A stretch of DNA of 64,000 nt from Microbulbifer hydrolyticus. GTDB taxonomy: Bacteria > Pseudomonadota > Gammaproteobacteria > Pseudomonadales > Cellvibrionaceae. Below, piece after piece: positions 1 through 41,524 of this stretch (its first letter is position 1; each line of letters begins with the position of its first letter). The stretch spans positions 1,687,501 to 1,751,500 of the forward strand of contig NZ_CP047491.1 of assembly GCF_009931115.1 (NCBI RefSeq), written 5' to 3'. The position numbers and the translations under genes were made by a program. Under the pieces are notes generated by a model that ran no database searches, was not told where the DNA came from, and saw nothing but the letters and a program-made list of their open reading frames with translations.

Positions 1-1819
1 GAAGCTGATGCTGGATATCCGCTACTACTGCCCACAAATGCAGCGCCCGGCGGAGGGCAAGGCCGGTAACAGCCACTGCGATCAGGCGGTGACGGCTCTG
101 CCTCAGGACCTGCGGCGCATGATCGCTGACAACGATATCGGCGGCATTATTCTGTTCGCTGATAATTTGGCAGATAGCGCGCAGATGGTGCGTCTCAACC
201 GTCAACTGCAGGGCGCGGCGGCCAGCGCCGCGAGCGGCCTGCCGCTGCTGATTGGTATCGACCAGGAGGGTGGACGTGTCAATCGTTTGCCGCGGAATGA
301 GGCTGCCGCTTTCGCCGGCAATATGGCTATTGGCGCAACCTATCCTCGTCACGGTGAACATTTCGCAGCAACCACTGCCACCGCGATGGCAGAGCAATTG
401 CAGGCACTTGGGTTCAATGTCAATTTTGCACCCACGCTGGATGTGAACAGTAATCCGCAGAACCCCGTGATCAATGTGCGCTCGTATGGTGAGTCGGCGC
501 CAATGGTTGCCGATCTCGGAACCGCTGCGGTGGCAGCGTTCCAGCAGCAGGGCATTGCCGCGACAGTCAAACACTTCCCCGGTCATGGTGATACCAGTGT
601 GGACAGCCACACCGGCTTGCCGCGGGTCGAGCGCACGCTGGAGGATGCCCACGCGATTGACTTGCTGCCGTTCAAGCAGGTGATAGCCAATGCGCAACCG
701 GCGCTGACCATGACCGCCCACATCCAGTATCCCGCGCTCGATGACACTGTCCTCAAGTCAAAAAATGGTGACGAAATTCTGGTGCCAGCGACCCTGTCGC
801 GAAAAATTTTGCACGGAATTCTGCGGAATGAAATGGGCTATCAAGGGGTTATCGTTACCGACTCGCTGAATATGGCCGGTATCAGCGACTATTTCTCTCC
901 TGAAGATGCGGTGGTGAAAACCTTTCAGGCCGGTGCCGATATTGCCTTGATGCCAATCAAAGTTCGCTATCCGGAAGATATTCCTCGTATTAGTGCTTTG
1001 ATTGAAGTTGTGGCGGAAGCGGTGGAGGCAGGTGAGCTCTCACAGCAGGAGCTGGATGAATCCTTCGCCCGTATACTGACGCTGAAGCAGATGTTCGCGC
1101 CGGCCACCAAAACAGAGCAGGACATCGAGACTGCGGTAGAGGCGGCACGCGTCGCGCTGTCAGCGCCGCAGCATCGTGCGCTCGCTTCCGAGCTGGCATC
1201 TGCGGCGCTGTCCAGCGTGTTCCCGCTATCGGCGTCGACACTCCCGGTAATAGACGAGCACGTTTCGCATATTCAGGTTTTGGCACCCAACCGGATGATC
1301 GGCGAAGCATTTCGTATCGCGCTGAAGGACGTGACCGAGGCGAACGTTTCTGTGCTTGAGCCCGAGAGCGCTGTCGCCGACATTGCCGCAGCCGCCGCAG
1401 ATGTGTTGTTGGTGGCCAGTATCGTGCCCGCGGAGAGTGCGGTTGAGCTCGGCGGTATGGAGGATTTGCAGACACTGCAGCGTCGCCAGTTGGACATTCC
1501 TTCGCTGTATGCGATCTACCGGCAGTCCCTGCTGTCTGCACGCGCCCAGGATGCGAAAACGGTCTTTATCTCCATGCGCTCTCCATACGAGTCTGCCGTG
1601 TTCGAATCCCTGGCGGATGTGCATCTCGCGAGCTTCGATTACAAGGCATTTGTAGGCCCGGATCAGAATCTCGAGGGGCCGGTTTATCACGCTATCGCCA
1701 GGGCGCTGGTAAATTCCGGTGAGCCGACAGGGCGGGTCCCGGTCACTGTCATGTCCGCGACAGAATTGCAGGCGCAGACTACTGATATGGATGGTGTCGA
1801 CATGTCCAGCGAAGGGTAG
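1..1819 (+). CDS. Two-domain GH3 beta-N-acetylglucosaminidase (NagZ-like), 5' partial
   Basis: Glycoside hydrolase family 3 enzyme that would remove GlcNAc from peptidoglycan fragments. The frame is open to the left edge and reads KLMLD into the first ATG (position 8), as inside GH3 proteins, so the true start and any signal peptide lie upstream. Counting from that ATG, the NagZ-type acid/base segment KHFPGHGDT..DSH is near residue 188 and the nucleophile segment VTDSLNM near 283 (Asp about 284). About 220 residues after the barrel form a second GH3 domain, as in the long secreted B. subtilis NagZ and unlike the short cytosolic E. coli enzyme. It is the first gene of a peptidoglycan-degradation locus. 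The family call is firm; substrate is inferred from motif and context. Confidence 0.88.
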   Translation, partial: KLMLDIRYYCPQMQRPAEGKAGNSHCDQAVTALPQDLRRMIADNDIGGIILFADNLADSAQMVRLNRQLQGAAASAASGLPLLIGIDQEGGRVNRLPRNEAAAFAGNMAIGATYPRHGEHFAATTATAMAEQLQALGFNVNFAPTLDVNSNPQNPVINVRSYGESAPMVADLGTAAVAAFQQQGIAATVKHFPGHGDTSVDSHTGLPRVERTLEDAHAIDLLPFKQVIANAQPALTMTAHIQYPALDDTVLKSKNGDEILVPATLSRKILHGILRNEMGYQGVIVTDSLNMAGISDYFSPEDAVVKTFQAGADIALMPIKVRYPEDIPRISALIEVVAEAVEAGELSQQELDESFARILTLKQMFAPATKTEQDIETAVEAARVALSAPQHRALASELASAALSSVFPLSASTLPVIDEHVSHIQVLAPNRMIGEAFRIALKDVTEANVSVLEPESAVADIAAAAADVLLVASIVPAESAVELGGMEDLQTLQRRQLDIPSLYAIYRQSLLSARAQDAKTVFISMRSPYESAVFESLADVHLASFDYKAFVGPDQNLEGPVYHAIARALVNSGEPTGRVPVTVMSATELQAQTTDMDGVDMSSEG

Positions 1820-1961
1820 GGCGAGCGCCCAGAGCGTTGGTATCAACGGCCAGATTTGCGTCGCTATTTCTATCGGTTGCGCCTGTGGTTAGTCATTTAA
1901 TTCTCACGGGCCCGTCGTTCACACTTGCGGGTATCGAAGTTAGAAAAATAACAGGTGCACC

Positions 1962-3404
1962 ATGCGAACGGATTTGTGTTACCTCGACGCCTGCGAAGTA
2001 CTGCAGCGCTATCAGCAGCGCGAAGTTTCTCCGGTAGAGGTACTGGCCGCGCAGATTGAACGCTTTGAGCAGATTGGTGGTGAAATCAACGCGTTCACCC
2101 GGAAAATGTTTGAGCGCGCGCGAGGGCAAGCCCGCGCTGCGGAGCAGGCATACATGGACGGTACTGCGCGCCCGCTGGAAGGCCTGATTGCCGCAATCAA
2201 GGATGAGACTTACATTCGTGGTGAAGTCACCACGAATGGATCGCATTTGCTCAAAGACAATGTGGCGGATGTTACCGATCCGGTGCCTGAGCGCTTGCTG
2301 GCAGCCGGGGCAATCTTTCACGCCCGCACCGCCACGCCGGAATTTTCGGTGGCTTCCTATACCTGGTCAGACTTGTGGGGCGTCACCCGCAATCCCTGGA
2401 ATACCGCTATCACTCCGGGTGGATCGTCTGGTGGCTCCGCCGCCGCATTAGCCGCTGGGCTCTGTACCATTGCCAATGGAACGGACATGGGTGGGTCTGT
2501 GCGAATTCCTGCCTCGCAATGTGGGCTGCTCGGGTTAAAGGCTTCACACGGAAGGATTCCGGAAATCCCGCCATATAATGTGGACCCCTATGTACATCAC
2601 GGCATGCTGACGCGAAGCGCACGTGACATGGTGATGCTCTACAACCTTCTTTCGGGCCCTCATTCGGTCGACCTCATGTCACAGCTGCCCAAAGAGGCGG
2701 TATCTGACACGCCGCTGGACTTGCGTGGGCTGCGTATTGGTCTGTCTCTCGACCTGGGCTTCTTCCAGCTCGATTCCGATGTACGTTTAAATACGCTGGC
2801 TTTTGCCAAGCGCCTGCGTGACCAGGGGGCGCAGGTGGATATGGTGGAGCTCGACTGGGACGAGCGCTGTATCCGCACGGCACAAATTCACCAGGGCGCA
2901 CAAATGGGGCAGATGTTGCGTGATAAATTTGATCACCCGCAATATCGTGAAAAGTTGACCAGCTACGTGCGCCACTACTTTTCACTCTCGTCGGCGGCTT
3001 CACCTCAGCGGATACTCGAGGCCAATGACTACGCCCAGCACATGTGGCAGTCGTTGGAGCAGGTGTTCCGTAACGTCGACTTCCTGCTTTGCCCGACCGT
3101 ATGTACTACCCGGGTCAAGGCAGACTTCGACTACAGTCGCGATCGGATCGAAATCGGTGGCGTCGAAGTCGATCCTGTAAAAGGCTGGTTTATGACGTAC
3201 CCCTTCAACACCCTGAGTCGGTGCCCGGTGCTTTCAATGCCCAGTGGTATTGCCGACAACGGCGTGCCTACGGGAGTGCAGTTGGTAGGCCACCCCTATG
3301 CAGATGGTGCCCTGCTGCAGCTGGGACTTGCTATCGAGTCTGCGCAGGGAATGTTTATCCGGGCGGACAATGCGCCGCTGTCAAAACAGGCAATCAGTGC
3401 ATGA
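1962..3404 (+). CDS. Amidase signature family enzyme
   Basis: 480-residue amidase signature hydrolase that cleaves an amide bond of unknown substrate. The Ser-cisSer-Lys triad is visible: Lys80 (AAIKDE), Ser155 in GGSSGGS and nucleophile Ser179 in GTDMGGSVRIPA. No signal peptide, so cytoplasmic. It opens a tightly packed operon; its stop overlaps the next start (ATGA at 3401). The partners are D-glutamate cyclase-type and 5-oxoprolinase-type proteins, so the substrate is probably a small amide or lactam of glutamate. That is inference; the family itself hydrolyses many amides. It should not be read as GatA: no gatB or gatC is present. Confidence 0.85.
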   Translation: MRTDLCYLDACEVLQRYQQREVSPVEVLAAQIERFEQIGGEINAFTRKMFERARGQARAAEQAYMDGTARPLEGLIAAIKDETYIRGEVTTNGSHLLKDNVADVTDPVPERLLAAGAIFHARTATPEFSVASYTWSDLWGVTRNPWNTAITPGGSSGGSAAALAAGLCTIANGTDMGGSVRIPASQCGLLGLKASHGRIPEIPPYNVDPYVHHGMLTRSARDMVMLYNLLSGPHSVDLMSQLPKEAVSDTPLDLRGLRIGLSLDLGFFQLDSDVRLNTLAFAKRLRDQGAQVDMVELDWDERCIRTAQIHQGAQMGQMLRDKFDHPQYREKLTSYVRHYFSLSSAASPQRILEANDYAQHMWQSLEQVFRNVDFLLCPTVCTTRVKADFDYSRDRIEIGGVEVDPVKGWFMTYPFNTLSRCPVLSMPSGIADNGVPTGVQLVGHPYADGALLQLGLAIESAQGMFIRADNAPLSKQAISA

Positions 3405-4210
3405 TCAAGCAGTGTGCGAAAGTGATTCGATCAGAAATACGTGCCGGTCGCTTCTGCGGTCCCACATCGGGACTGGCGGCGGGGTATGTCCAGGCAAATA
3501 TTGCAATAGTACCTGCGCAAGTTGCGGACGAATTTGCTGAATTCTGCGCGCTGAACAAGCGTGCCTGTGCACTTTTACACCGTGCGGATCCGGGGCAATT
3601 CCTGTTGCCTGCGCTGGGGGAGGGCATTGACATACGCACCGATGTACCCCGCTACCTGATTCATCGCGCCGGGGAGAGCGCACAGGAAGTGACCGACGTG
3701 CGCGACTACTGGCGCGAAGATCTGGTTACTTTTGCCCTGGGTTGCTCGTTCTCTTTTGAAGAGGCGTTGATTAGCGCAGGCCTTGAAGTGCGCAACATCA
3801 GCGAGGGTCGCAATGTTCCCATGTATCGCACCAACCGCAATTGCAGTGCTACTGAAAGGTTCCATGCGAATCTGGTGGTGAGCATGCGTCCGTTTAGTGG
3901 CGAAGGTATTGATCGTGCTTGCGAGGTATCTGGCCAGTACCCCCTGGTGCATGGTGCACCGGTGTACGCAGGAGACCCGGCTGCTCTCGGGATCCGGGAT
4001 ATCGCCGCGCCGGATTATGGCGACGCTGTCACGGTCAATCCGGGTGAGCTCACCGCGTTCTGGGCTTGTGGAGTGACCGCGATTGAAGCGCTGCGCAATG
4101 CAGGGCTGGATTTTTGTATCACGCATGCGCCGGGCCATATGTTGATTTCCGACCGACAAAACACGGAAATGGAGTCGGTAACGGACATCCGCGCGTTGGA
4201 CTGGCACTGA
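3401..4210 (+). CDS. DUF1445 / D-glutamate cyclase-type N-domain protein (putative hydro-lyase)
   Basis: 269-residue protein of the DUF1445 family, annotated in bacteria as putative hydro-lyase and forming one of the two domains of mammalian D-glutamate cyclase (D-Glu to 5-oxo-D-proline). Family-like segments are EGRNVPMYRTN near residue 145 and the C-terminal THAPGHMLISD. The reading frame is open further upstream to 3089, but that part overlaps the amidase; the ATG at 3401, coupled to the amidase stop, gives the usual family length. The other cyclase domain (DUF4392) is encoded three genes downstream at 5891, so the two polypeptides may form one enzyme. Cytoplasmic. Confidence 0.85.
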   Translation: MIKQCAKVIRSEIRAGRFCGPTSGLAAGYVQANIAIVPAQVADEFAEFCALNKRACALLHRADPGQFLLPALGEGIDIRTDVPRYLIHRAGESAQEVTDVRDYWREDLVTFALGCSFSFEEALISAGLEVRNISEGRNVPMYRTNRNCSATERFHANLVVSMRPFSGEGIDRACEVSGQYPLVHGAPVYAGDPAALGIRDIAAPDYGDAVTVNPGELTAFWACGVTAIEALRNAGLDFCITHAPGHMLISDRQNTEMESVTDIRALDWH

Positions 4211-4220: not shown

Positions 4221-4925
4221 ATGTTTCAGATTGTGGATGCCGGCGATACCTCGATTTGCGTCTATCTCGCTGAGCGCGCGGATGAATCCACGCTCACACG
4301 GGTACTCGCCTTTGTGGACAGGGCAAAAATGGCACTGGGAGACCTGCTGCTTGATGTAGTGCCTTCATACTGTAGTGTCACGGTGTACTTTGACCTGCTC
4401 CGTACCGACTACTTCAGTGTCTGCAGCGTGCTTCGCTCGATAGCGGACGACCTCCCCGTTGAGCCGCTGGCGCAAGCGGCCTCGGCTGACGGCAAGCTGA
4501 TCACATTGCCGGTTTACTATGGTGGTGATGTTGCACCCGATGCGTTGCGCGTGGCGCAGGCCGCCGGTATGTGTATTGAAGATGTAGCCCACCTGCACGC
4601 CGCCGAGACTTATCGGGTATTTGCTCTGGGTTTTCGTCCGGGGTTCGCATTTATGGGAAGCACTCCGGAACCGCTGCGGTTGCCTCGCCTGGACACCCCA
4701 CGCAAGCGGGTTCCGGCGGGTGCTGTCGCTATCGCTGGTACCCAGGCCGCAATTTACCCGTCGGCCAGTCCGGGCGGCTGGAATCTGATCGGACGCTGCC
4801 CCACACCACTGTTCTCATGCGTGAATGGCGCACCCAGTGTACTGCTCGCGGTCGGAGACCGGGTGCGATTCAAGCCGGTAGAAAGAGAGGAATACCTGGC
4901 CCTGGGAGGGCAGCTGGATGCGTGA
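4221..4925 (+). CDS. pxpB: 5-oxoprolinase subunit PxpB (KipI family)
   Basis: 234-residue KipI/PxpB protein. In E. coli PxpA, PxpB and PxpC together hydrolyse 5-oxoproline to glutamate with ATP; B and C form the kinase-like part. The family signature is the FRPGFAFMG stretch near residue 136, followed by PRKRVPAGAVAIAG and a C-terminal PGGWNLIGR. It starts 10 bases after the DUF1445 gene and overlaps pxpC by 8 bases, which indicates translational coupling. No pxpA (LamB/YcsF family) is found in this operon or elsewhere in the window. Cytoplasmic. Confidence 0.92.
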   Translation: MFQIVDAGDTSICVYLAERADESTLTRVLAFVDRAKMALGDLLLDVVPSYCSVTVYFDLLRTDYFSVCSVLRSIADDLPVEPLAQAASADGKLITLPVYYGGDVAPDALRVAQAAGMCIEDVAHLHAAETYRVFALGFRPGFAFMGSTPEPLRLPRLDTPRKRVPAGAVAIAGTQAAIYPSASPGGWNLIGRCPTPLFSCVNGAPSVLLAVGDRVRFKPVEREEYLALGGQLDA

Positions 4926-5898
4926 CGACACCGCAGAATCGAAAGCACAGGGTACCGTGCAAGTGATATCCCCGGGGCCGTTAGCAATGCTTCAGGATAA
5001 CGGACGCACTGGTTATCAGCATCTGGGCGTTGGCGTCGGCGGTGTTGCCGACAGCCATGCAGCGGGGTGGGCAAATCGGTTGCTGGGTAATGCAAGCGAC
5101 GCGGTTTTAGTGGAGATTTTTCTCGGCAACTTCCGTGTGCGTTTTGATTACGCCAGTGAATTTTCTGTTGCAGGTGCCGAAGTACAGTGGAGATTGGATG
5201 GGCGTCCCATCGCGAATTGGCAGTCTCACCGCGCGCAGCCGGGCAGCCTGCTGGAGGCATCGATGGCGAGCGCAGGGCTACGCGCCTATCTCGCGTTCCC
5301 TGGAGGTGTCGACGCACCGGGGATCTGCGGTAGCAGTGCGACCAGCGTGGGCGAGGGGCTGGGAGGGTTGCTTGGCAATGGAAGTCCGTTAAAGCAAGGG
5401 GACGTACTGAAGTTTTCACCCCACCAGGCTGCAGCGGGGGTAATCCGGCGGGTGCCCACGCAGTTTTGTCGTGTGTATGGCAATGCTATGCGGCTGCGGG
5501 TGGTGCCATCAAACCAGTTCAATAAATTTCCCCCAGCAAGTGTGCAGCAGTTCTTCGCTTCCCGCTTCCAGGTTGCCGCGGAGTCAGACCGTATGGGCGT
5601 ACGGCTACAGGGCCGTCCTTTGGAAAACCCACCGGGCAGCCTCACTTCGGAGGCGGTGAGTAGCGGAGCGATACAGGTCCCTGCCAGTGGCCTGCCTATC
5701 GTGCTGATGCAGGATTGCCAGACCATCGGTGGTTATCCAAAGCTCGGACATGTGTACCGGGTGGATCTGGACCTTTTGGCACAGGCCCGATCGGGTGTGG
5801 AAGTTCAGTTCTCACTTGGTGATGCGGCCGAGTCCCGACACGAATTACTACTGCAAAAACAGTTTTTTTGCCGATATAGAGAACGCAATTATGGATAA
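4918..5898 (+). CDS. pxpC: 5-oxoprolinase subunit PxpC (KipA family, biotin-dependent carboxyltransferase-like)
   Basis: 326-residue KipA/PxpC protein, partner of PxpB in ATP-dependent opening of 5-oxoproline. Recognisable segments are PGPLAMLQDNGR near the N-terminus, GVGVGGVADSHA, and QDCQTIGGYPKLG near residue 265. The ATG at 4918 follows a GGGAGGG ribosome site and overlaps the pxpB stop. The gene overlaps the next start by 8 bases. Members are sometimes annotated as allophanate hydrolase subunit 2 or urea amidolyase; the D-glutamate cyclase neighbours favour the 5-oxoproline role. Confidence 0.92.
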   Translation: MRDDTAESKAQGTVQVISPGPLAMLQDNGRTGYQHLGVGVGGVADSHAAGWANRLLGNASDAVLVEIFLGNFRVRFDYASEFSVAGAEVQWRLDGRPIANWQSHRAQPGSLLEASMASAGLRAYLAFPGGVDAPGICGSSATSVGEGLGGLLGNGSPLKQGDVLKFSPHQAAAGVIRRVPTQFCRVYGNAMRLRVVPSNQFNKFPPASVQQFFASRFQVAAESDRMGVRLQGRPLENPPGSLTSEAVSSGAIQVPASGLPIVLMQDCQTIGGYPKLGHVYRVDLDLLAQARSGVEVQFSLGDAAESRHELLLQKQFFCRYRERNYG

Positions 5899-6847
5899 TT
5901 TGGTTCTGGATAGGTTTCACCGTGCAGACACTATGCACCTCTCCGCGCAGCTGGAATCTTTAATGGTGGCGTGCAACCTGCGCGGAATGGGTACAATTCG
6001 CGACAGCGGATATCGGGGATATTTGCAGTCGGCCGTAGAGACACTATTGCGAGACCGGCAGCGAGTAGCGATTGTCAGTGGTTTCCCCATGGGCAACAGC
6101 TTTGAAACCGACGGACCGGCCGGGGCCATTGCTCTGGCGCACGGGCTGCGGAAGATAGGCTCGAAAGTTGCGCTGCTGGGTATCACCGAGTACGCGCAGG
6201 CGATGGCGAAGGCACTACCACAGGCAGTGCCGGATGGTGAAGGGCTGGCGGCCAGTATCTTTGCGGTTGATCCAAAGAACACAGCCGCTCAACTGAAAGC
6301 TTTCAGTGTTGATTTCCGCCCGACTCTGGTCATTTTTATTGAGGTGCCCGGCAGTGGATCTGATGGTCGCTACCGCAACATGCGCTTCGAAGACATCAGT
6401 GCGAGTACACTGGAGTGGGAGTTGCTACTGAGAGCGGTGGAATGTCCTACCCTGGCTATCGCCGATGGTGGCAATGAGCTCGGAATGGGAATGCTGCGGT
6501 GCAGGCTGGAAGATATGCCGATCGCCTGCGCTCATGCATCAACTGACGAGTTGGTGATTGCGGATGTGTCCAATTGGGGTGCATACGCGCTGCTGGCACA
6601 AGCGTCTGCTTGTGTAAGACGTCCGCTATTGGATGGTTTTTCCCTCGCACAGTGTCTGCAAGCATTGGTAATGGAGGGGGTGGTAGACGGGGTGACCGGA
6701 GCCGTCACGGCTACCGAAGATGGATTACCCTTGTCGCGCAGTCTTTCGTTTATAGAGGGGGTCAAGGCTCTGTCTCACCCATTCTGTGTGAGCGAAATTG
6801 AAAGCCCTGCCGTATCGCAAGACCCTTTGGCCGAGGCTCTGGCCTAA
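5891..6847 (+). CDS. DUF4392 / D-glutamate cyclase-like C-domain protein
   Basis: 318-residue protein of the DUF4392 family, the C-terminal domain of mammalian D-glutamate cyclase. It has an N-terminal helical part and a central GFPMGNSFETDGPAG segment near residue 60, followed by a GGNELGMG motif near residue 200; these look like nucleotide or acid-binding loops. The ATG at 5891 overlaps the pxpC stop; an upstream in-frame ATG at 5729 lies deep inside pxpC and is rejected. It is the last gene of the operon and converges on the amiD operon. With DUF1445 it would supply 5-oxoproline to PxpBC (inference). Confidence 0.82.
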   Translation: MDNLVLDRFHRADTMHLSAQLESLMVACNLRGMGTIRDSGYRGYLQSAVETLLRDRQRVAIVSGFPMGNSFETDGPAGAIALAHGLRKIGSKVALLGITEYAQAMAKALPQAVPDGEGLAASIFAVDPKNTAAQLKAFSVDFRPTLVIFIEVPGSGSDGRYRNMRFEDISASTLEWELLLRAVECPTLAIADGGNELGMGMLRCRLEDMPIACAHASTDELVIADVSNWGAYALLAQASACVRRPLLDGFSLAQCLQALVMEGVVDGVTGAVTATEDGLPLSRSLSFIEGVKALSHPFCVSEIESPAVSQDPLAEALA

Positions 6848-6923: not shown

Positions 6924-6944
6924 GTATCAGGTATCAGGTATCAG
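6924..6944. repeat. Three tandem GTATCAG 7-mers
   Basis: Three perfect copies of GTATCAG occupy 6924-6930, 6931-6937 and 6938-6944. The amiD stop codon lies in the third copy, so copy-number change would alter only the untranslated tail. Confidence 0.8.
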
Positions 6945-12674: not shown

Positions 12675-12689
12675 GGAATATCTTATTCC
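12675..12689. promoter_or_regulatory. Candidate RpiR operator GGAATA-TCT-TATTCC
   Basis: Perfect palindrome with 6-base arms and a 3-base spacer, 165 bases upstream of the TonB-dependent receptor. The same GAATA..TATTC pattern occurs upstream of the NlpC/P60 gene (16002), the serine hydrolase (21175) and the symporter/RpiR divergent promoter (40504), which suggests a shared regulator. Confidence 0.5.
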
Positions 12690-16001: not shown

Positions 16002-16021
16002 TTATTCTGAATAAATTATTC
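16002..16021. promoter_or_regulatory. Three alternating TTATTC/GAATAA half-sites upstream of the NlpC/P60 operon
   Basis: TTATTC (16002-16007), GAATAA (16009-16014) and TTATTC (16016-16021) are each separated by one base, forming two overlapping perfect palindromes. It lies 66-86 bases before the NlpC/P60 start, in a promoter position. The operon includes an RpiR regulator, a likely binder. Confidence 0.55.
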
Positions 16022-16087
16022 GTAATTGAGCGTCAAAGTGGATTAAAATGGCGCTATTCAGAGAAGAATAAGTAGTGGAGTTTTGGA

Positions 16088-30832: not shown

Positions 30833-30882
30833 GATCGGGTACATGCGAATTTTTCATTTGCGGATTGGGGGATGAGCATGTG

Positions 30883-33415: not shown

Positions 33416-34737
33416 TGCAGGTTAATTTGATTGAGGGGCTATTGCCGCAGACGGAGATGCGGCGCGCGGAGGAGGTCTTGAACGCTTGCGTGCACTGTGG
33501 CTTTTGCACGGCTACCTGCCCTACGTATTTGCAGGGCGGCAATGAGCTGGACAGTCCGCGCGGGCGCATTTATCTGATCAAGGAAATGCTGGAGCAGGGC
33601 AGCGCCTCGGCAGTCACGCGTACCCACCTTGACCGCTGTGTGACCTGCCTTAGCTGTGAAACGACCTGCCCATCCGGAGTGGAGTATCACAAACTGGTCG
33701 CCATCGGCCGCAGTGCCAGTGAGCGGCTTGCACCACGCGGGCTGTGGCAGCGGGGGCTGCGTTGGGGGCTGCGTAAATTGCTGGTGACTCGAGGCTTGTT
33801 CGCGGCATTGATCAGGATGGGGCGCTGGTTTTCGGTTCTGTTACCCGCCCGAGTCCGTCGGGTGTATTTTCCGGTGGGTGCACACCAGTTTACCCGCCCC
33901 CGAAACCACACTCGCTCTAACGGGCAATCGACCCCGGTGCAGCCCGGGCTCCGCTCCGGTACATTCACGCAACAAGTTGAAGCCGGGACGGTCCTGCTGG
34001 TGCGCGGGTGCGTACAGCCATCCCTGCGTCCACAGACTGATGTGGCGCTGGAGAAAATACTGCAACACAGCGGTATTCCCGTGCTGCACAGTTCCGCTGC
34101 AAACTGCTGCGGTGCGGCCAGTTTTCATACCAGCGGAGAAGCGGAGGCGCGCGATCTTGCCCGCACAAACATCGATGCGTGGTGGCCCTTATACCAGCAG
34201 GGGCAGGATGGAAATACGTCCTTGCGCGCTATCGTATCCACCGCATCCGGTTGCGGTGTACACCTGAAAGATTACCCGCACTTGCTGGTGGATGACCCAG
34301 AATACCGTGAAAAAGCGGCAATACTGGCAGCATTGATCTGTGATCCTGTGGAATTACTGGAAAGGGTTTTTGCTGAAGTGCCCCCCGTGTTTGGCAACAG
34401 GTTGCGCGACCTGGACCTGGTGTTCCACTGTCCCTGCACCCTGCAGCACGGGCAGGGGCTCAGTGGCCGGGTTGAGAGGCTGTTGCAGGGGCTCGGTATA
34501 ACACTTCCGCCGGTGACAGACAGCCACCTGTGCTGCGGGTCGGCGGGCACATACTCGATCCTACAAGCGGGCATGTCCAAACGCCTGCGTAGTGAAAAAC
34601 TGCGACATTTGCAGGAGCATGACCCAAAATCCATTATCACTGCCAATATCGGATGCCAGCTGTATTTACAGGGGGGTACCGACAAACCCGTGTGTCACTG
34701 GCTGGAAATTCTGGCGGATGCTCTGCCGGATTCCTGA
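33415..34737 (+). CDS. glcF: GlcF-type iron-sulfur subunit
   Basis: 440-residue iron-sulfur protein that passes electrons from the GlcDE flavins towards the quinone pool. Two 4Fe-4S motifs are visible, CVHCGFCTATCP (residues 25-36) and CVTCLSCETTCP (about 73-84), followed by CCG-type cysteine motifs (NCCGAA near 225, HLCCGSAG near 365). Last gene of the run that starts at 21287; a probable terminator follows. Confidence 0.94.
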   Translation: MQVNLIEGLLPQTEMRRAEEVLNACVHCGFCTATCPTYLQGGNELDSPRGRIYLIKEMLEQGSASAVTRTHLDRCVTCLSCETTCPSGVEYHKLVAIGRSASERLAPRGLWQRGLRWGLRKLLVTRGLFAALIRMGRWFSVLLPARVRRVYFPVGAHQFTRPRNHTRSNGQSTPVQPGLRSGTFTQQVEAGTVLLVRGCVQPSLRPQTDVALEKILQHSGIPVLHSSAANCCGAASFHTSGEAEARDLARTNIDAWWPLYQQGQDGNTSLRAIVSTASGCGVHLKDYPHLLVDDPEYREKAAILAALICDPVELLERVFAEVPPVFGNRLRDLDLVFHCPCTLQHGQGLSGRVERLLQGLGITLPPVTDSHLCCGSAGTYSILQAGMSKRLRSEKLRHLQEHDPKSIITANIGCQLYLQGGTDKPVCHWLEILADALPDS

Positions 34738-34897: not shown

Positions 34898-34910
34898 AAC
34901 AATAATTGTT
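34898..34910. promoter_or_regulatory. Palindrome AACAAT-A-ATTGTT in the leader of the C39-like gene
   Basis: Perfect 6-base arms, 13 bases upstream of ATG 34924 and just before the ribosome site. A regulator bound here would block initiation; identity unknown. Confidence 0.35.
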
Positions 34911-34923
34911 AACAGGTAATCAC

Positions 34924-36792
34924 ATGTCTTTACGTAATTTACTTTTGTTGCCCCTGCTGGCACTGGGGGCGCTTGGATCGATGCAGGCCGATGCGTTGTG
35001 CCCGGATGGTAGCAGTTTCGATGCCGGCCTGGATTTTTGTGCTAATGAAGTGGACGTATTTGGCCCTTTTACCGGTCAAATGGTGGAAGGGTGTGTCAGC
35101 TATGGTGGCGGGAGTGCCTGTACCAATAGCTATACCTACCCGGTGCAGGGCACGAATATCCAGGTGCTGCGGTGGTCTCGGTCTTTTGCTCAGAATCTGC
35201 GCGGCAATGGTGATTGTCCGGCTGGCTCTGTGCGCTCCGCCACATATGGTAACCATTGCTATGAAGAGGTGGCTGGAGCGGAAAACAATATATATGGCAA
35301 TTTTTCGCAAGCGGAGGTCAGCGCCTGCCAAAGCCTCAGTGGCGGCACGGCGTGTTTCACCAACCGCTGGTCTGCGGGATTTTATCTATCGGTAAAAGAG
35401 GAAATGAATCAGCAGCCGGGTGTTCTCACGAACAAATTTGGTGCCTGGCTATGGTATATCGATGAGCAGGGGGTGAATCGCACCCATGCGCAGCTGGCGG
35501 ATGAGCTGGCGGCCTTGGGAGTAAAGCGTATTTTTATCAAGATTGCCGACGGTACACAGAACTGTAACCTGTTTGCTGACGCCTGCTCTTCGACAACCAC
35601 AGATATCTATAAAAGCCGCGGAATCGAGCCCTGGGCGTGGGCGTATAATTATCCCAATAATTATTCCGCACAGGCGGATGCACTATATTACGCGGCACAA
35701 TATGGCTACGTGGGCTTCGTATCTGATGTGGAAGTAGAGTTCAATAACACCACCACGGCATTGCACAGCCTGTTTCAGGCATTCACCGATGCCCGGATAG
35801 ACGCCCAGAATAACGGTTACACTGATAGCAGTTTCGCCATCGGTGCCACCACCTGGGGCAATCCTGCAGACCAGGGCATGAATGTCGGCATTATTGATCA
35901 ATATGTAGATTTTCATATGCCGCAAACCTACGTCGAAGTTTGGGGCGGCAGTTACATGGCGGACCCGGCCTACTGGATCGAAGTAGGGGACTGTGAATAC
36001 CGGCAGCTGGGCGCGCAGAAGCCGATCTGGCATATAGTCTCTACCGAGTACAACCAGATTACGCCGGCGCAAATCGAGGCCTTTATGTCTGCCGCCGGTC
36101 CCAATGCCAGTATCTGGCGCGTACCTGGTGGCTCCGTTCCCCAGGCTGTGTGGAGTGACTGGGGCAATTTGGATTGGGAGCGTGTGAGTTTTACTCCGGG
36201 CAATTGCAGTGCGGGCAATAACGACCTGACGGATCGCCTTGATGATGCTGGAGACCCTCCGCCGCCACAGGTATCGGTTCCTTACTGGAATCAGCTGGAT
36301 AACTATTACGACCCGTACGGCACCTGCTCGGTGACTTCCCTGGCGATGATCACAGACTATTTTGGTATCACCGACCCCGGTGAGGTTGGCCGTACGCCGG
36401 ATTATATTTACGAGCGCTTCAATGGCGTATTGCAGACAGTGTCGGCACTGAAGAGCGGATTCAACACCCTGGCACAGGAAGCTGGCAGTGCTATCCGTAA
36501 TGTAGGCAAAGAGAACGGTACTATTGCTGAGCTGCGCGCACTGGCGTCACAGGGCACTCCAACCATTGTGCACGGGTGGTTTACCCAGCCGGGCCACATC
36601 ATGGTGGTCACCGGGTTTGACGGTGAGTACTACACCGTGAATGACCCCTTCGGGAAATGGAACCTGCAGAAGTGGGGCAGCTATGACACAAGTGTTTCGG
36701 GAGAAGGGCAGCGTTATCCGAAGGATGCTTTTGAATACGCGATCAATGACAATGGAACCGGCGATGATTTGTGGATCCACATCTTTGAGTAA
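34924..36792 (+). CDS. Secreted protein: duplicated Cys-rich module, glycosidase-like barrel and C39-like peptidase domain
   Basis: 622 residues. A signal peptide ends near residue 25. Residues 26-75 and 98-150 are two copies of a cysteine module (C-x-G ... C, then GxF ... C-x-S-x-x-GG-x-x-C). Residues about 165-425 look like a TIM-barrel glycosidase (AWLWYIDEQG, KRIFIKIADG, EPWAWAYNY, GFVSDVEVEF, DFHMPQTYVEVWGG); DVE and WGG suggest a GH25-like or related barrel, but I do not recognise the exact family. Residues 450-622 are a C39-like cysteine peptidase: Cys468 (GTCSVTSLAMI), His558 (PGHIMVVTG), Asp574 (VNDPFG). ATG 34924 is chosen over an upstream in-frame codon. Confidence 0.72.
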   Translation: MSLRNLLLLPLLALGALGSMQADALCPDGSSFDAGLDFCANEVDVFGPFTGQMVEGCVSYGGGSACTNSYTYPVQGTNIQVLRWSRSFAQNLRGNGDCPAGSVRSATYGNHCYEEVAGAENNIYGNFSQAEVSACQSLSGGTACFTNRWSAGFYLSVKEEMNQQPGVLTNKFGAWLWYIDEQGVNRTHAQLADELAALGVKRIFIKIADGTQNCNLFADACSSTTTDIYKSRGIEPWAWAYNYPNNYSAQADALYYAAQYGYVGFVSDVEVEFNNTTTALHSLFQAFTDARIDAQNNGYTDSSFAIGATTWGNPADQGMNVGIIDQYVDFHMPQTYVEVWGGSYMADPAYWIEVGDCEYRQLGAQKPIWHIVSTEYNQITPAQIEAFMSAAGPNASIWRVPGGSVPQAVWSDWGNLDWERVSFTPGNCSAGNNDLTDRLDDAGDPPPPQVSVPYWNQLDNYYDPYGTCSVTSLAMITDYFGITDPGEVGRTPDYIYERFNGVLQTVSALKSGFNTLAQEAGSAIRNVGKENGTIAELRALASQGTPTIVHGWFTQPGHIMVVTGFDGEYYTVNDPFGKWNLQKWGSYDTSVSGEGQRYPKDAFEYAINDNGTGDDLWIHIFE

Positions 36793-36906: not shown

Positions 36907-37893
36907 TTATACCGCCGGCTCCTCGTCCTTTAGTGCGGTACATTGACGGGGCCCGGAGGTATTTGTATCAGAGGCATCGCGTATCTCTTGCAACGCCCGA
37001 CGCAGGAAGCCCTGAGATTTTGCCAGTGCCTCTTCCGCCTTGCTGCGCTCAAGGCCACTCAGAATCATCATGATGGCAAGTTTTGCGTTGTGATCGCAGC
37101 TTTGCAGTACGCGGTCTGCTTCGTCGAGCCCGACCCCGGTAGTTTCCATTACTATGCGACGCGTGCGGCTGACCAGCTTTTCGTTGGTGGCTTTTACGTC
37201 AACCATCAGGTTGTAAAAACTTTTCCCGATACGAATCATACTGGCGGTAGTCAGCATGTTCAGTACCAGCTTTTGTGCCGTACCTGCTTTCATACGTGTG
37301 GAGCCGGTGAGAATTTCCGGCCCCACTTCCGGGAGGATGGCGATATCCGCTTCCTCGGCAATCGCTGCGGATTTATTGCATGAAACGGCTATGGTTGTGC
37401 AGCCGAGTGCACGGGCGTAGCGCAAGCCTCCAATCACGTATGGCGTACGACCGCTGGCCGCGATCCCGACCACGACATCATTTTCGCTCAGGTTGATATT
37501 GCGTAGATCCTCGCCGCCCAGCGTCAAACTGTCTTCGGCACCTTCCTGGGCTCTGTAAATAGCCTCCTCGCCACCGGCAATCAACGCCACCACCATATCT
37601 TCGCTGACGCCGAAGGTTGGGGGACACTCAACCGCATCGAGAATACCAAGCCGGCCGCTGGTTCCGGCTCCCATATAAATAAGGCGTGCACCAGATTTAA
37701 ATGCTTCGGCGATTGCGTCCACCGCGCGGGTAATGTTTGGTAACTCCCGGTATACGGCCTCTGGAACTTCCCGATCCGCATTGTTGATTTTCGTTAGAAT
37801 TTCTTCGCTAGACAGCAGGTCAATGTCGAGCGTGTCCGGGTTGCGGGCTTCGCTGGCCAGGGATGCCAGTTCGTTGAGCAGTTGTACGTTCAT
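36907..37893 (-). CDS. murQ: N-acetylmuramic acid 6-phosphate etherase MurQ
   Basis: Cleaves the lactyl ether of MurNAc-6-phosphate to GlcNAc-6-phosphate and D-lactate in the cytoplasm. 328 residues; the SIS domain carries [23 protein letters not shown] and [14 protein letters not shown], and [17 protein letters not shown] is a MurQ hallmark. The frame is open upstream to 38151 inside the kinase gene, but ATG 37893 (MNVQLLNEL) gives near-standard length. It follows the kinase by 73 bases in a minus-strand operon. The C-terminal 20 residues extend beyond the usual family end. Confidence 0.96.
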
Positions 37894-37966
37894 GGCTGAG
37901 TAGGACTCCAATGTCTTCGCCAGGATGTGATCAGAAAAATTTTGGCTGGACGATTGCAAAATGGGT

Positions 37967-38854
37967 TTACGAGGGTTGATGTAAGCTGAGCTTCTGTGCA
38001 GTACTTCTTGCCAGCATGCAGGCGCCATCCAGCGCCGTTCCCAGCGCTGGAATCTGCCTTCGCTGGTAATCGGGGTGCAGATGTGGTCTGAGCTTTTCTG
38101 CCAGACCGCCAAGAATCGCCAGAGGAAGTGCGTCACCATCACTGGCTGCACGGATAAGTCGGTCTACCTCCGCCGCGGTTTTGGCAATAATGTCGCGGGC
38201 CAGCGGGCAACTTGGGTAGTGAGCGAAAACTGCTGGTGCCAATGCAGCATATTCCCGAGATCCTGCGCGCTGCAGCCAGGGCAGTATTTGAGAACGAACC
38301 TCACCCACTTCCCGCATGATCTGTCGACACAAGGGGCTAATCACTTTTCCGTGCTTATCCAGTTCCCAAAGCAGGGCGCGCACTGCGCTCTTGCCGATTG
38401 CCGCGCCACTACCTTCGTCCCCGACCGCCAGGCCCCAGCCGCCGTATTGGCGGATTACACCATCGCGCCCTAGCCGCATGGCGACAGAGCCCGTACCGAT
38501 AGCAACCATGACGATCGGGGTCCCGGCACCGGCGCCCAGCAGGGAGGTTTGTGCATCCGATGTAACTTCGACACTGAGAAAGCCCAGTTTCCGCAAACTT
38601 TGTCGAAGCTTCTCGGCAGCGACCGGGTTCCCGGCGCCAGCGACACCGCAAGCGAGGTGGACACAGCCGGGCTGAATTCTTTGCCGGGCAACGATTTGCC
38701 GGCTGAGTTCGGCGATAGTCTGTATCGCACCGTCGAGATCCTGCGTGAGCGAGCTCGCGCCGGCTTTCAGTGTGAGCAGTGCGCCCGTTGAGTCCTCAAG
38801 ACGCGCCAGGGTCTTGGTTCCTCCGCCGTCTATCCCTAGAAAAAAAGCACTCAT
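37967..38854 (-). CDS. BadF/BadG-type amino-sugar kinase (probable GlcNAc/MurNAc kinase)
   Basis: 295-residue ASKHA-fold kinase with the phosphate loop GIDGGGTKT (8-16) and a second loop [13 protein letters not shown] near residue 118, [13 protein letters not shown] near 138 and a C-terminal LGGLAEKL. This family includes eukaryotic GlcNAc kinase and clostridial MurK, which phosphorylates both GlcNAc and MurNAc at position 6. Its place directly before murQ makes MurNAc a likely substrate. It lies 15 bases after the symporter gene. No PTS component (MurP) is present, consistent with kinase-based entry. Confidence 0.88.
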
Positions 38855-38869: not shown

Positions 38870-40459
38870 CTATCCGTTTGCTTGGGTCTGGTTGGGGGTA
38901 ACTGTGAAGTCCTGTGTACTTTCCGGTACCGGTTTGCCCAGATTACATACTGCAAATGACGCCAGAGTGCCCAGGCATAGCTGCCAAGGGAAGGCGATAA
39001 CCAGTGGTTCATTGGTATCGGTAAGCAGAGTGATCATCCACGGTTGCTGTAGCAGGGTAACCACAAATCCGACAGCCAATGCCCACCCCACACTGCTGGC
39101 ATTACCGCGTCTGGTAAGTAGTACTGTGAAAAACACACCGAGTAGGCCCGAGTAGGCAAATACCATTACGGACAGGGCAAACGTTATCAGTGGCAGATCG
39201 CTGATCTGCTGCCAGAAAAAGCAGAGTATTGCCATGCCCCCCAAAGCGCTCGCCACCAGAGCCATGCCCCAGCGTCCAGCGCGTACAAAGTGCGCTGCTG
39301 GTCGGTGGATGCCGCGCACTCGCAGCCAGTGGCGGTACAGGTCCTCAGTGAGAACGCTTGCCATTGAATTGAGGCTGGAATTAAGGGTGGAAAGGGCGGC
39401 GGCAATGACTCCAATCGTCACCAGACCGCGTAAACCGGCGGGCATTTCGTTAAGCACATAGTGCATAAACACTGTGACATCTCCGCCGCTGGGCGCGGAT
39501 ACACTGGTCCCGGCCATCAGCTGAGGATTCTGGTAAAAAATATGCAGCAAAAGGCCGATGCCCATGAATACGGCCATTACCGGTACCACCATGACAACGG
39601 AAAACAGTACTGCTCTGGCTCCATCGCGTGGGGTTTTACAGGTGAGGATCCGCTGCGTAACATCCTGATCCAGGCCAAAGGCAGCAATATTCAGCAATAC
39701 GAAGCCGGTCAGGGTTGCCCACAGGTTGAACGGATCGCTCAGATCCCAGCTGGTATCCACGAGAGTTAACTTGGAGGCTTCACCACCCGGAGGCGTATTC
39801 AATGCCGCAAAAAGCTGGCCCATATCTGCGGGAATTTGCCAAAGAAGCACCGCGACTACGGCGACGGCTGCACTGACGTAAACGATGCACTGCAGCACAT
39901 CGCTCTGAATCACGGAGCGTACGCCACCGATTAGTGTCTGTAGTAGTCCTGCCGCGGTGAGCAGAATGACGGCCGCTATCACATGATTGGCGGCGATATC
40001 ATTGAACAGAATCATCGATACAGCGATGGCGGCCATATACAGCCGCGCGCCACTGGCAAAAACTCGCCCAAGAAGATAGATTCCACCAGCGCGATTTTTA
40101 GCCTTTTCGCCAAAACGGGACTGCAACAACTCGTACACGGTGGTAACGCGATGGGCATAAAAGCGTGGAATGAGGAAACGGGCGACAACAATCGCGGCGA
40201 TGACGGCTCCCACATTGGTAAACAGATAAGTGAGGTCCCCGCGGTAACCGAGATCCGGTCCGCCGAGGAAGGTGGCGGCAGACTGCGTGGTAGCGAGGGT
40301 AGAAATCGCCACCATCCACATCGGCATGCTGTTGCCGGCAAGAAAATAGTCCCGACTGTTATTCGCTCGGTTTTGACTGAAGTACCAGCCGGATGCGGCC
40401 AGGACCCCGAGGTAGAGAGCAAATATTCCCCAGTCCAACCCGGTAAACTGCAGTTCCAT
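38870..40459 (-). CDS. Sodium:solute symporter (SSS family)
   Basis: 529-residue symporter with about 13-14 hydrophobic segments, the opening DYFLAGNSMPMWMVAIS, GGPDLGYRGDLTY, and the sodium-binding helix region AALSTLNSSLNSMASVLTEDLYR near residue 350. It is the first gene of the symporter-kinase-murQ operon and faces the rpiR gene across a 210-base divergent promoter. By context it probably imports MurNAc and/or GlcNAc; other SSS members carry sialic acid, sugars or amino acids. Confidence 0.9.
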   Translation of the reverse strand: MELQFTGLDWGIFALYLGVLAASGWYFSQNRANNSRDYFLAGNSMPMWMVAISTLATTQSAATFLGGPDLGYRGDLTYLFTNVGAVIAAIVVARFLIPRFYAHRVTTVYELLQSRFGEKAKNRAGGIYLLGRVFASGARLYMAAIAVSMILFNDIAANHVIAAVILLTAAGLLQTLIGGVRSVIQSDVLQCIVYVSAAVAVVAVLLWQIPADMGQLFAALNTPPGGEASKLTLVDTSWDLSDPFNLWATLTGFVLLNIAAFGLDQDVTQRILTCKTPRDGARAVLFSVVMVVPVMAVFMGIGLLLHIFYQNPQLMAGTSVSAPSGGDVTVFMHYVLNEMPAGLRGLVTIGVIAAALSTLNSSLNSMASVLTEDLYRHWLRVRGIHRPAAHFVRAGRWGMALVASALGGMAILCFFWQQISDLPLITFALSVMVFAYSGLLGVFFTVLLTRRGNASSVGWALAVGFVVTLLQQPWMITLLTDTNEPLVIAFPWQLCLGTLASFAVCNLGKPVPESTQDFTVTPNQTQANG

Positions 40460-40503
40460 CAGATGTCACTCATTCTGTTTGCTCGGCCCGCACTTCCATG
40501 GGG

Positions 40504-40550
40504 CTAATTAATTATTCCTGTTATTCCTTGCAATTGGTATCATTTATTCT
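40504..40550. promoter_or_regulatory. TATTC half-site array in the symporter/RpiR divergent promoter
   Basis: CTAATTAATTATTCC (40504-40518) keeps the right arm of the GGAATA-N3-TATTCC motif and part of the left; TTATTCC recurs at 40521-40527 and TTTATTCT near 40543-40550. Spacing and place fit autoregulation by the adjacent RpiR protein. Confidence 0.42.
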
Positions 40551-40669
40551 TTGTGTAAGCAAAGTATTTTCCATCGGTAGTACCGATGGCGACTGCACTG
40601 GCTGCCGGATAAGCGCGCGGAATTAACGCCGCGGCAAGCAGCACCACGTTCACTCACTCCGGGATAAAT

Positions 40670-41524
40670 ATGGGTTCATTGGCTAAAATTCGTGCGATGC
40701 GCGATTCCATGTCCAACCACGAGCGGCGCATTGCCGACTTTCTGTTGGATAAAGTGGAAACAGTGCGCACGCACTCGTCAAAGTCACTGGCAGAAATGGT
40801 GGGAGTATCCCAATCCAGCGTCGTTAAATTCAGCCAGAAGTTGGGATACAAGGGATATTCCGATTTTAAGCTGTCGCTGACTGAGTCCGTGGCACGCTCG
40901 ACGATGATGCCGCAGGCCGCCATCCACGGAGATATTGCCTTTGATGATGATCTTGCCACTGTGGCGCAAAAACTGATCAGCCGAAAGAATCTCGCTTTGA
41001 GCGAAACGGTCATGGCGAATTCTGAAGAGGCACTGATGCAGTCGGCGCAGGCTTTGCGCGGAGCCAAACGCATCCTGTTGTTCGGGGTAGGGGCGTCTTC
41101 GCTGGTTGCACGGGACCTGGCCTACAAGTTGATGAAGCTGGGTAGGTCCGTGCTGATTGAAGGGGATACACATGTACAGGTTGCCAATGCGGCAACGCTG
41201 GGCCCTGGGGACCTCATTTTTGCGATCTCCGAGTCCGGGTTAACCCGCGAGGTGATCCGGGTTGCGGAAACCGGTGCGGCACAGGGGGCCGAGGTGCTTT
41301 CTCTCACACGCTTCACCCGCAACCCGCTTACAGAGCTGTCTACTTACCGCCTCTACTGTGTCGCCAACGAGGCTGAGGCGCGCAGCTCGTCGATTCTCGC
41401 GCGCACCGCGCAATTGATGGTGACCGATCTGCTGTTTATTTTGACGTCGCAAAAGGACGATAAAGCCAACGAGCTGTTCGAGCGTAGCCGGAAGGCAGTG
41501 GAAGTACTCCGCGGCAGGGGATAG
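40670..41524 (+). CDS. RpiR family regulator (MurR-like) with intact SIS domain
   Basis: 284-residue HTH-SIS regulator. The HTH contains GVSQSSVVKFSQKLGYKGY (about residues 45-63), shared almost exactly with the RpiR protein at 18688. The SIS domain keeps the sugar-phosphate loops: FGVGASSLVARDL near 143 and ISESGLTREV near 187. It is divergent from the symporter-kinase-murQ operon, the layout of E. coli murR and murQP, so MurNAc-6-phosphate is the probable ligand. GGGA precedes the ATG by 6 bases. I withhold the symbol murR because the ligand is inferred. Confidence 0.9.
   Translation: MGSLAKIRAMRDSMSNHERRIADFLLDKVETVRTHSSKSLAEMVGVSQSSVVKFSQKLGYKGYSDFKLSLTESVARSTMMPQAAIHGDIAFDDDLATVAQKLISRKNLALSETVMANSEEALMQSAQALRGAKRILLFGVGASSLVARDLAYKLMKLGRSVLIEGDTHVQVANAATLGPGDLIFAISESGLTREVIRVAETGAAQGAEVLSLTRFTRNPLTELSTYRLYCVANEAEARSSSILARTAQLMVTDLLFILTSQKDDKANELFERSRKAVEVLRGRG

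Follow-up and report, generated by a model that had tools for sequence, protein, structure and literature searches.

Do 29 neighbouring genes of Microbulbifer hydrolyticus, most of which fit one step of murein (peptidoglycan) breakdown, form a single system for feeding on that polymer, and what would hold such a system together? The cluster runs from -145 to 41,524 (~41 kb) of the window, by which we mean the whole stretch of 64,000 nucleotides analysed (positions 1,687,501-1,751,500 of the single-contig 4.21-Mb genome); all coordinates are window positions, negative ones lying to its left. All 29 genes score over curated Pfam cut-offs (Table 1), and the named proteins closest to those of the window are from Microbulbifer. 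On comparative sequence evidence we hold it highly probable that the cluster is a murein utilisation regulon under two MurR/RpiR regulators, which would act through one shared operator; the unity of the locus is well supported by that comparison, and murein feeding is a strong prediction from it.

The original prediction, made from the letters alone, had described a peptidoglycan utilisation locus reaching from the left edge of the window to 41,524. Every protein it named is present (with family matches for GH3, NamZ, an AmiD-type amidase, NlpC, MurQ, GlcDEF and others), and seven genes are added to its list: a serine hydrolase, a decarboxylase, a NagX-like protein, a PF01425 amidase, an M1-like protein and two MurR/RpiR regulators. 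Its boundaries needed revision. The GH3 start, an ATG at -145, falls outside the window, and since GH3 has a second TonB-dependent receptor immediately to its left (L002:17289-19709, about -2711 to -291), the locus need not begin at base 1. The right end moves to about 41,720, because an RNA-like element comes after regulator B.

Co-occurrence in Microbulbifer

We compared 37 Microbulbifer genomes (this one and 36 others, one of those lacking NamZ being 80% complete) and 21 further genomes of the same order. The unity of the system had been put forward as an inference, to be given up if its genes showed no conserved co-occurrence in relatives; they do co-occur, and the shared operator and conserved neighbourhoods described below lend further support. 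NamZ is present in 19/37 Microbulbifer. The TonB receptor (E 1e-40) is found in 18/19 NamZ-bearing genomes versus 0/18 lacking NamZ (Fisher p ~1e-9), the D-glutamate cyclase in 13/19 versus 0/18 (p 1e-5) and the L-Ala-D/L-Glu epimerase in 18/19 versus 3/18 (p 1e-6), these p-values taking no account of shared ancestry among the genomes. Neighbourhood alone does not explain the association, since the receptor is unlinked from NamZ in six genomes, >600 kb away in two (G019, G036) and on another contig in four (G011, G012, G022, G035), with no other cluster gene in the 40 kb around it. Gene order is largely the same in 17 relatives, with modules gained and lost; peptide and sugar modules are on separate contigs in G005, and the MFS-M1-NlpC part of the Amidase_2 operon is absent from some genomes, in which Amidase_2 would head the operon. 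Two control stretches beside mutS, the site of the cluster in several carriers, gave no match in G003 and G021.

Receptor loci in other genera

A collection of 84,980 species was scanned with the receptor alignment, and the best 80 of 172 confirmed loci (11 Microbulbifer, 69 from other genera) were compared. Within 10 kb of the receptor, the 69 other-genus loci carry Amidase_2 (36), beta-lactamase-type hydrolase and NlpC (32 each), epimerase and NamZ (31 each), MurQ (30), SSS (27), kinase (24), NhaC (21) and D-glutamate cyclase (3), and 44/69 have at least two of seven core murein genes in that distance. Mapped onto a tree of 81 receptors, linkage to murein genes requires 10 changes, compared with 24.9 in shuffles. 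Conserved neighbourhoods occur in Pseudoalteromonas, Paraglaciecola, Thalassotalea, Kangiellaceae, Robiginitomaculum and Lysobacterales. The NlpCa, M1-like, MFS and decarboxylase genes were not seen outside Microbulbifer in the 80-locus set. Outside the genus, three loci have D-glutamate cyclase next to the receptor: L102 and L105, whose receptors are sisters, with PxpB, PxpC and GLUCM as well, and L111, where GLUCM accompanies it.

A predicted shared operator and two regulators

Start regions of nine gene sets were searched for palindromes separately, and the consensus GGAATANNNTATTCC was then drawn by eye; the core GAATAAT..ATTATTC came from 4/9 sets (receptor, NlpC, beta-lactamase-type, GH3), and the palindrome recurs before the receptor, NagZ, NlpC and other operons. 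Only two perfect copies exist in the 4.21-Mb genome, at 12,675 and 41,581, both at the locus; an earlier 18-bp version (<=3 mismatches) matched seven genome sites, three of them at the locus (binomial p 3e-5, after the fact). Sites with <=2 mismatches stand in the start regions of 18/18 receptors (15 perfect), 12/12 GH3 and 17/17 NlpC genes, counts that are not independent, since the consensus was drawn from these same sites. All six unlinked receptors have a perfect operator. At the same threshold the counts are 8/18 for Amidase_2, 4/8 for MFS and 5/18 for SSS (shuffled expectation 0.1-0.3 per set throughout), the eight Amidase_2 sites lying in genomes without the MFS-M1-NlpC genes; the beta-lactamase/transglutaminase intergenic region has such a site in 9/17 cases, and in 15/17 with <=3 mismatches. 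No site with <=2 mismatches was found in the start regions of NamZ, MurQ, NagX, GlcD, S66, NhaC, epimerase or regulator A (RpiRa), as would be expected of genes inside operons or under separate control.

Across the 58 genomes, 26 perfect sites lie in 16/19 NamZ-bearing Microbulbifer, 20/26 of them at the cluster or receptor (coordinates read by eye), versus 5 in 4/18 NamZ-lacking Microbulbifer and 4 in 4/21 genomes of other genera; a reversed control gave 2 in all. One-mismatch sites elsewhere in this genome number five, four of them at L182, L183, L185 and L186. Among the receptor loci, a perfect site is present in 13/14 from Pseudoalteromonas, which are near relatives; where it was mapped, in two loci, it lies 26-29 bp 5' of the SSS match. 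With that genus excluded, 30 murein-linked loci hold 14 sites (<=1 mismatch) in 13 loci versus 1 control-pattern site. In two Rheinheimera, one Kangiellaceae and one Enterobacterales locus, the RpiR gene has a site of its own in front of it (1-2 mismatches). The segment SQSSVVKFSQKLGY is identical in regulators A and B and, judging from its place, would be the recognition helix; its SQSSV core is kept in 34/38 regulator matches from the 80 loci (the four others did not fit the pattern). That both regulators read one operator is the simplest reading. A further palindrome, taATTGATATCAATta, is conserved between SSS and regulator B in Microbulbifer (window 40459-40670).

The cluster could instead consist of independent systems that happen to be co-located, a murein core beside unrelated amino-acid, 5-oxoproline and decarboxylase operons. 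The D module (the operon with the D-glutamate cyclase), decarboxylase, M1-like and MFS genes are indeed patchy, near the receptor in other genera they are rare or unseen, and 0/4 start regions of the amidase that begins the D operon have an operator with <=2 mismatches. Yet the cyclase is confined among congeners to those bearing NamZ (13/19 vs 0/18), it stands beside the receptor in L102, L105 and L111, PxpA joins the cluster in seven relatives, and the D operon begins 142 bp after GH3, which has an operator-like site. We take this alternative seriously but judge it unlikely.

Several further observations weigh against a single regulon, besides the dependence of the three highest operator counts on the sites behind the consensus. 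Five of the nine gene sets yielded different palindromes, and every one of the nine scored above its shuffles, as is expected of related sequences; the evidence therefore lies only in one word turning up repeatedly. The SSS start regions reach the two-mismatch threshold in only the five cases counted above, and two carriers (G005, G008) lack a perfect site. Fewer than two core genes accompany 25/69 other-genus receptors, some on short contigs, and the 25 receptor loci without core genes hold 4 sites (<=1 mismatch) in 3 loci versus 0 for the control. The peptide module (NlpC-epimerase-RpiR A-transglutaminase-beta-lactamase-S66-NhaC) occurs without NamZ in G001, G023 and G034, beside a different beta-barrel receptor that is only weakly like this one (seen for G001, where a perfect operator lies 5' of it); G031 has NamZ and MurQ without receptor or epimerase, and in the 40 kb fetched from it SSS and kinase are absent and VanX is present only as a fragment. 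The window has no PxpA, the kinase lacks the S-P-L patch described for Tannerella MurK in the accessible part of PMC10465942, and the decarboxylase, NagX, amidase and M1-like protein would have at most a possible part in murein use. We retain the murein utilisation regulon as the preferred reading, with the qualification that the cluster is modular and not one fixed unit.

Probably exported hydrolases and the predicted outer-membrane receptor

Lipoprotein and export signals were called from the lipobox pattern and by eye. Six hydrolases are predicted lipoproteins (the NagZ-type GH3, Amidase_2, two NlpC, the beta-lactamase-type hydrolase and VanX-NamZ), hence cell-bound, and four more look exported, giving ten probably exported murein-hydrolase-type proteins in all; no signal was seen on the epimerase, MurQ or kinase. 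Breakdown is therefore predicted to be extracytoplasmic. The GH3 protein carries the NagZ signature KHFPGHGDTSVDSH, and the SH3b-NlpC protein matches 3m1u (structure of a putative gamma-D-glutamyl-L-diamino-acid endopeptidase) and 3h41. The VanX part of the fusion protein matches 1r44 and retains SxHxxGxxxD and EWWH, its NamZ part matches 4jja, and the two are one fused gene in six genomes and adjacent genes in six others. The PF00144 hydrolase is possibly an AmiE-type amidase or a D-peptidase.

Ten exported hydrolases could also be thought of as an antibacterial weapon that lyses competitors, with uptake secondary. We consider this very improbable: the six lipoproteins would stay bound to the cell, catabolic branches for sugar, peptide and D-glutamate are present with importers, and no toxin delivery family was recognised by Pfam among the 29 genes (nor was an ABC protein, a phosphotransferase system (PTS) protein or a SusD family member). 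Recycling of the cell's own murein, the receptor retrieving self-shed fragments, would make use of enzyme classes related to those that serve recycling in Gram-negatives according to the accessible part of one account (PMC13046382). Such recycling is expected to be general, yet NamZ occurs in only the 19/37 congeners; the hydrolases look exported, not cytoplasmic, and a TonB receptor goes along with them. The genome has, moreover, another MurQ beside a HAD phosphatase, a methyltransferase and an SDR gene, in an order that we take to resemble mupP-type recycling loci, and we think recycling quite unlikely to be what this cluster does.

For the murein-feeding regulon, the receptor would provide the outer-membrane step. 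Its 1000 aa have no Plug or barrel match in Pfam, carboxypeptidase-regulatory models alone having matched. A model predicted from a 30-sequence alignment (predicted local distance difference test, pLDDT, 71.8; predicted template modelling score, pTM, 0.73; N-terminus of low confidence) was compared with the PDB by Foldseek, and the 50 listed matches are TonB-dependent outer-membrane receptors (E 1.7e-24 to 3.2e-18); in this model the protein has the plug and barrel fold of a TonB-dependent transporter. Identification by sequence against the PDB was dropped after one meaningless match, and the fold settled the identity. Several relatives of the receptor carry barrel domain PF25183, and one source labels one relative Oar-like.

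Gene content and proposed catabolic branches

Overlapping or near-touching genes define five operons: amidase-D-glutamate cyclase-PxpB-PxpC-GLUCM, MFS-M1-like-NlpC-Amidase_2, NlpC-epimerase-RpiR A, decarboxylase-VanX/NamZ-NagX-GlcDEF and SSS-kinase-MurQ. AmpG was not recognised, the MFS gene matching no AmpG model in Pfam or NCBIfam.

Table 1. Features of the putative murein cluster and its flanks, in window coordinates
Feature	Position	Strand	Evidence or remark
Operator-like site before GH3	-194..-180	.	2 mismatches
GH3 exo-beta-N-acetylglucosaminidase (NagZ type), predicted lipoprotein	1..1819, start -145	+	PF00933; lipobox by eye, full frame
PF01425 amidase, starts D module	1962..3404	+	Pfam
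D-glutamate cyclase domain protein	3401..4210	+	PF07286; counterpart of one half of mammalian DGLUCY
PxpB-type 5-oxoprolinase subunit	4221..4925	+	PF02682; TIGR00370 145.1 bits, just below 145.55 cut-off
PxpC-type 5-oxoprolinase subunit	4918..5898	+	PF02626; TIGR00724 over cut-off
GLUCM-like_C protein	5891..6847	+	PF14336; counterpart of C-terminal half of mammalian DGLUCY
Amidase_2 N-acetylmuramoyl-L-alanine amidase (AmiD/AmpD type), predicted lipoprotein	6941..7924	-	PF01510; lipobox
NlpC/P60 endopeptidase, predicted lipoprotein	7909..8526	-	PF00877; lipobox
M1-like metallopeptidase, probably exported	8523..10760	-	PF01433; HEVGH motif
MFS transporter, heads Amidase_2 operon	10757..11950	-	PF07690
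Perfect operator GGAATATCTTATTCC	12675..12689	.	165 bp 5' of TonB receptor
TonB-dependent outer-membrane receptor (Oar-like), predicted murein-fragment importer	12854..15856	+	PF13620; TonB-dependent transporter fold; NamZ linkage
Operator-like site TGAATAAATTATTCG before NlpC-epimerase operon	16008..16022	.	2 mismatches
SH3b-NlpC/P60 gamma-D-Glu-diamino-acid endopeptidase, predicted lipoprotein	16088..17563	+	PF12913, PF00877; lipobox
L-Ala-D/L-Glu epimerase, no signal peptide seen	17575..18669	+	full-length match to B. subtilis 1jpm/1tkk, 341 bits
MurR/RpiR regulator A	18688..19488	+	PF01418, PF01380
Transglutaminase-like peptidase, probably exported	19581..21092	-	PF01841
Operator-like site GGAATAGTTTATTAT between divergent 19581-21092 and 21287-22894 genes	21175..21189	.	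pattern search
Class-C beta-lactamase-type serine hydrolase, predicted lipoprotein	21287..22894	+	PF00144; STTK, YDN, HTG motifs; lipobox
S66 LD-carboxypeptidase, N-terminal RR signal	22933..24015	+	PF02016, PF17676; N-terminus
NhaC-family transporter	24195..25589	+	PF03553; travels with epimerase
Orn/Lys/Arg-type decarboxylase, locus-specific paralogue	25662..27782	+	PF01276
VanX D-Ala-D-Ala dipeptidase fused to NamZ exo-muramidase, predicted lipoprotein	27749..29641	+	PF01427, PF07075, PF20732; lipobox
NagX/HGSNAT-like transmembrane acetyltransferase	29645..30832	+	PF07786; NF046061 under cut-off
GlcD-type FAD oxidase, start uncertain	30829..32334	+	family match
GlcE-type subunit	32327..33415	+	family match
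GlcF-type iron-sulphur subunit	33415..34737	+	family match
C39-like peptidase, probably exported	34906..36792	+	PF13529
MurQ N-acetylmuramic acid 6-phosphate etherase	36907..37911, start uncertain (open frame to 38151)	-	TIGR00274 407 bits, over cut-off
BadF-type kinase for N-acetylmuramic acid/N-acetylglucosamine	37967..38854	-	PF01869
SSS symporter, predicted N-acetylmuramic acid importer	38870..40459	-	PF00474
Operator-like site GGGCTAATTAATTATTCC between SSS and regulator B	40501..40518	.	best of seven 18-bp matches in genome, 2 mismatches
MurR/RpiR regulator B	40670..41524	+	PF01418, PF01380
Promoter-like TTGAAT-N17-TATATT	41565..41595	+	-10 inside perfect operator GGAATATTATATTCC (41581-41595)
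Predicted small RNA (start assumed)	41599..41719	+	5' hairpin, conserved TCACCTTG, CCAATTC/GAATTGG hairpin, terminator

In the sugar branch, SSS occurs with kinase and MurQ in other genera too, and the kinase matches 1zc6 and 8zo3, a kinase for N-acetylmuramic acid (MurNAc) and N-acetylglucosamine (GlcNAc). Specificity for MurNAc was sought in the Tannerella S133-P134-L135 patch and rejected, our reading of the alignments placing GGW there, as in NagK and 8zo3; with the patch absent, the protein is called a MurNAc/GlcNAc kinase only. The GlcD-type oxidase likely acts on the D-lactate from MurQ. The second MurQ of this genome lies at 7488-8621 of L184 (C1:2538001-2553000), also near gyrA and an amidohydrolase. 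In the peptide branch, the NhaC-family transporter is a candidate importer of L-Ala-D-Glu. The locus-type decarboxylase, which might act on the diamino acid of murein, is present in 16/19 NamZ-bearing genomes, and a 53-58% paralogue is found in all 37 Microbulbifer.

In mammals the two halves of D-glutamate cyclase are fused as DGLUCY. Both halves are present here with PxpB and PxpC, as separate genes flanking PxpBC, and PxpA is elsewhere in the genome (sole match at C1:3427952); the D module was therefore rejected as a complete PxpABC. In seven relatives PxpA is inside the cluster, and in G002 it is near a separate D cluster. PxpA and D-glutamate cyclase are also adjacent or within a few kb in four genomes from other genera of the order (G045 C1:756281-757777, G037 C57:14253-15783, G049 C212:4408-7578, G054 C14:446590-454462). 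A general cyclase and 5-oxoprolinase pathway is suggested. Split microbial DGLUCY homologues are counted in a table in the accessible part of PMC11580864. The separate cluster of G002 (L181) is headed by a 46% relative of the left-hand second receptor and contains the D module, Amidase_2, NlpCa, M1-like, MFS and VanX; the present locus may therefore be two receptor-headed clusters merged.

A predicted small RNA

The site at 41,581 is followed by conserved RNA-like sequence and a terminator. The element occurs 3' of regulator B in 16 genomes, all but one (G005) of the 17 that have this regulator; eight further loose-pattern matches, which find no support from the RNA model, were set aside. In 16/16 a TTG precedes the operator at an unvarying distance, and TATATT within the operator would be the -10. 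Counted from the assumed start, transcripts of 121 nt in this genome and of 161-187 nt in the 15 others are predicted. Against dinucleotide shuffles the copies fold with a mean z of -3.45 (range -1.2 to -5.9), and two 5' hairpins occupy the same places in 15/16 copies though their arm sequences vary by lineage, the copy of this genome being without the second. RNAalifold covariation is weak for these hairpins because the arms align badly, so per-copy folds were used; TCACCTTG is invariant in the 16 copies and unpaired in most, not all, single-copy folds. Neither the copy in the window nor that of G018 matched Rfam at the gathering score (the best for G018 being suhB/mmgR, with 17.2 bits against 41), and three tRNAs are the only such matches in the window. 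There is no conserved reading frame, 5/16 copies lacking any of 10 codons or more. Duplex energies against the start regions of the locus genes were about those of shuffles, giving no clear target among them. A search of the 80 receptor loci with the RNA model gave no match; most of the Microbulbifer loci among them stop short of the place of the RNA. We predict an operator-controlled small RNA of an unregistered family that appears to be new.

Proposed pathway

The lipoproteins and exported hydrolases would, outside the cytoplasm, cut glycan, MurNAc-L-Ala, D-Glu-diamino-acid, LD and D-Ala-D-Ala bonds, and the Oar-like receptor would import murein fragments across the outer membrane. SSS would import MurNAc, the BadF kinase would phosphorylate it, MurQ would split MurNAc-6-phosphate to GlcNAc-6-phosphate and D-lactate, and GlcDEF would oxidise the lactate. 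NhaC would import L-Ala-D-Glu, which the cytoplasmic epimerase would turn into L-Ala-L-Glu, and the split DGLUCY-type cyclase with PxpB/PxpC would route free D-glutamate through 5-oxoproline. Both regulators would keep the promoters of the receptor, NagZ, NlpC, Amidase_2, beta-lactamase, SSS and the small RNA repressed for as long as no murein sugar-phosphate is present, and the small RNA would retune targets elsewhere in the cell. Taken together, this would amount to a TonB-powered murein-eating regulon of marine Proteobacteria, with an Oar-like receptor family for murein fragments, an NhaC importer of L-Ala-D-Glu, D-glutamate use via split DGLUCY and 5-oxoprolinase, paired repressors, one operator kept across orders, and a repressor-gated RNA of a new family tuning other uptake genes; in this full form we offer the proposal only tentatively, as one that may well fail in some of its parts.

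Comparison with known systems

Bacillus subtilis has nagZ-amiE-namZ-murR-murP-murQ, in which AmiE is a beta-lactamase-fold amidase; our PF00144 hydrolase may correspond to it. The same NagZ signature, NamZ, MurQ and a MurR-type regulator are found here, but B. subtilis is Gram-positive and has the PTS importer MurP, whereas this cluster has SSS and a kinase, a TonB receptor and a peptide branch. The murein-peptide operon of that species, ykfABCD, brings together S66, L-Ala-D/L-Glu epimerase and SH3b-NlpC, which form a conserved unit here too; ykf has an ABC peptide importer subunit where this cluster has an NhaC-family transporter, with the TonB receptor added. Loci built around TonB-dependent transporters in marine bacteria, among them polysaccharide utilisation loci (PULs), likewise join a TonB receptor, hydrolases and catabolism for one polymer. 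The likeness to a PUL that had been noted earlier holds for receptor and hydrolases, but no SusD was recognised and the SusC-SusD pair of Bacteroidota-type PULs is not found, so it is only loose; the predicted substrate is murein, control would be by RpiR proteins, and a shared operator is predicted.

In Tannerella forsythia, the ybbC gene of ampG-ybbC-murTKQ is, we assume, of the NamZ type. That operon is the nearest studied scavenging operon in the accessible parts of PMC5388701, PMC7670621 and PMC10465942. It has the same NamZ-family protein, a MurNAc importer, a BadF-type kinase and MurQ (PMC5388701, PMC10465942); a BadF-type kinase beside MurQ and an importer is found here, SSS being the predicted MurNAc importer. 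It differs in that AmpG imports muropeptides there, whereas no AmpG was recognised here and the kinase patch is different; beyond it, the present cluster has the TonB receptor, the VanX fusion, epimerase, NlpC, S66, the D-glutamate and lactate branches and RpiR control. Gene context led to the prediction of a peptidoglycan TonB-dependent transporter in Pedobacter heparinus (PMC3400609), and Caulobacter recycles without MurQ and has a TonB receptor for GlcNAc (PMC13046382), as far as the accessible parts of those papers go. Among the matches listed in a search of open-licence literature (titles and abstract starts, with most subscription papers outside it), we found no description of this locus and no characterised receptor for murein uptake at the outer membrane. 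We regard the locus as a new form of known murein-scavenging operons; the RNA appears new.

Implications

Marine organic matter includes a large pool of peptidoglycan and its D-amino acids that is consumed slowly. For one marine genus that can be cultivated, the locus supplies a receptor family, an operator open to testing, a candidate importer of dipeptides and a predicted pathway for D-glutamate, together with a predicted new small RNA that would be linked to nutrient choice. Since some receptors sit apart from the cluster and have still kept its operator, the predicted regulon can be tested directly.

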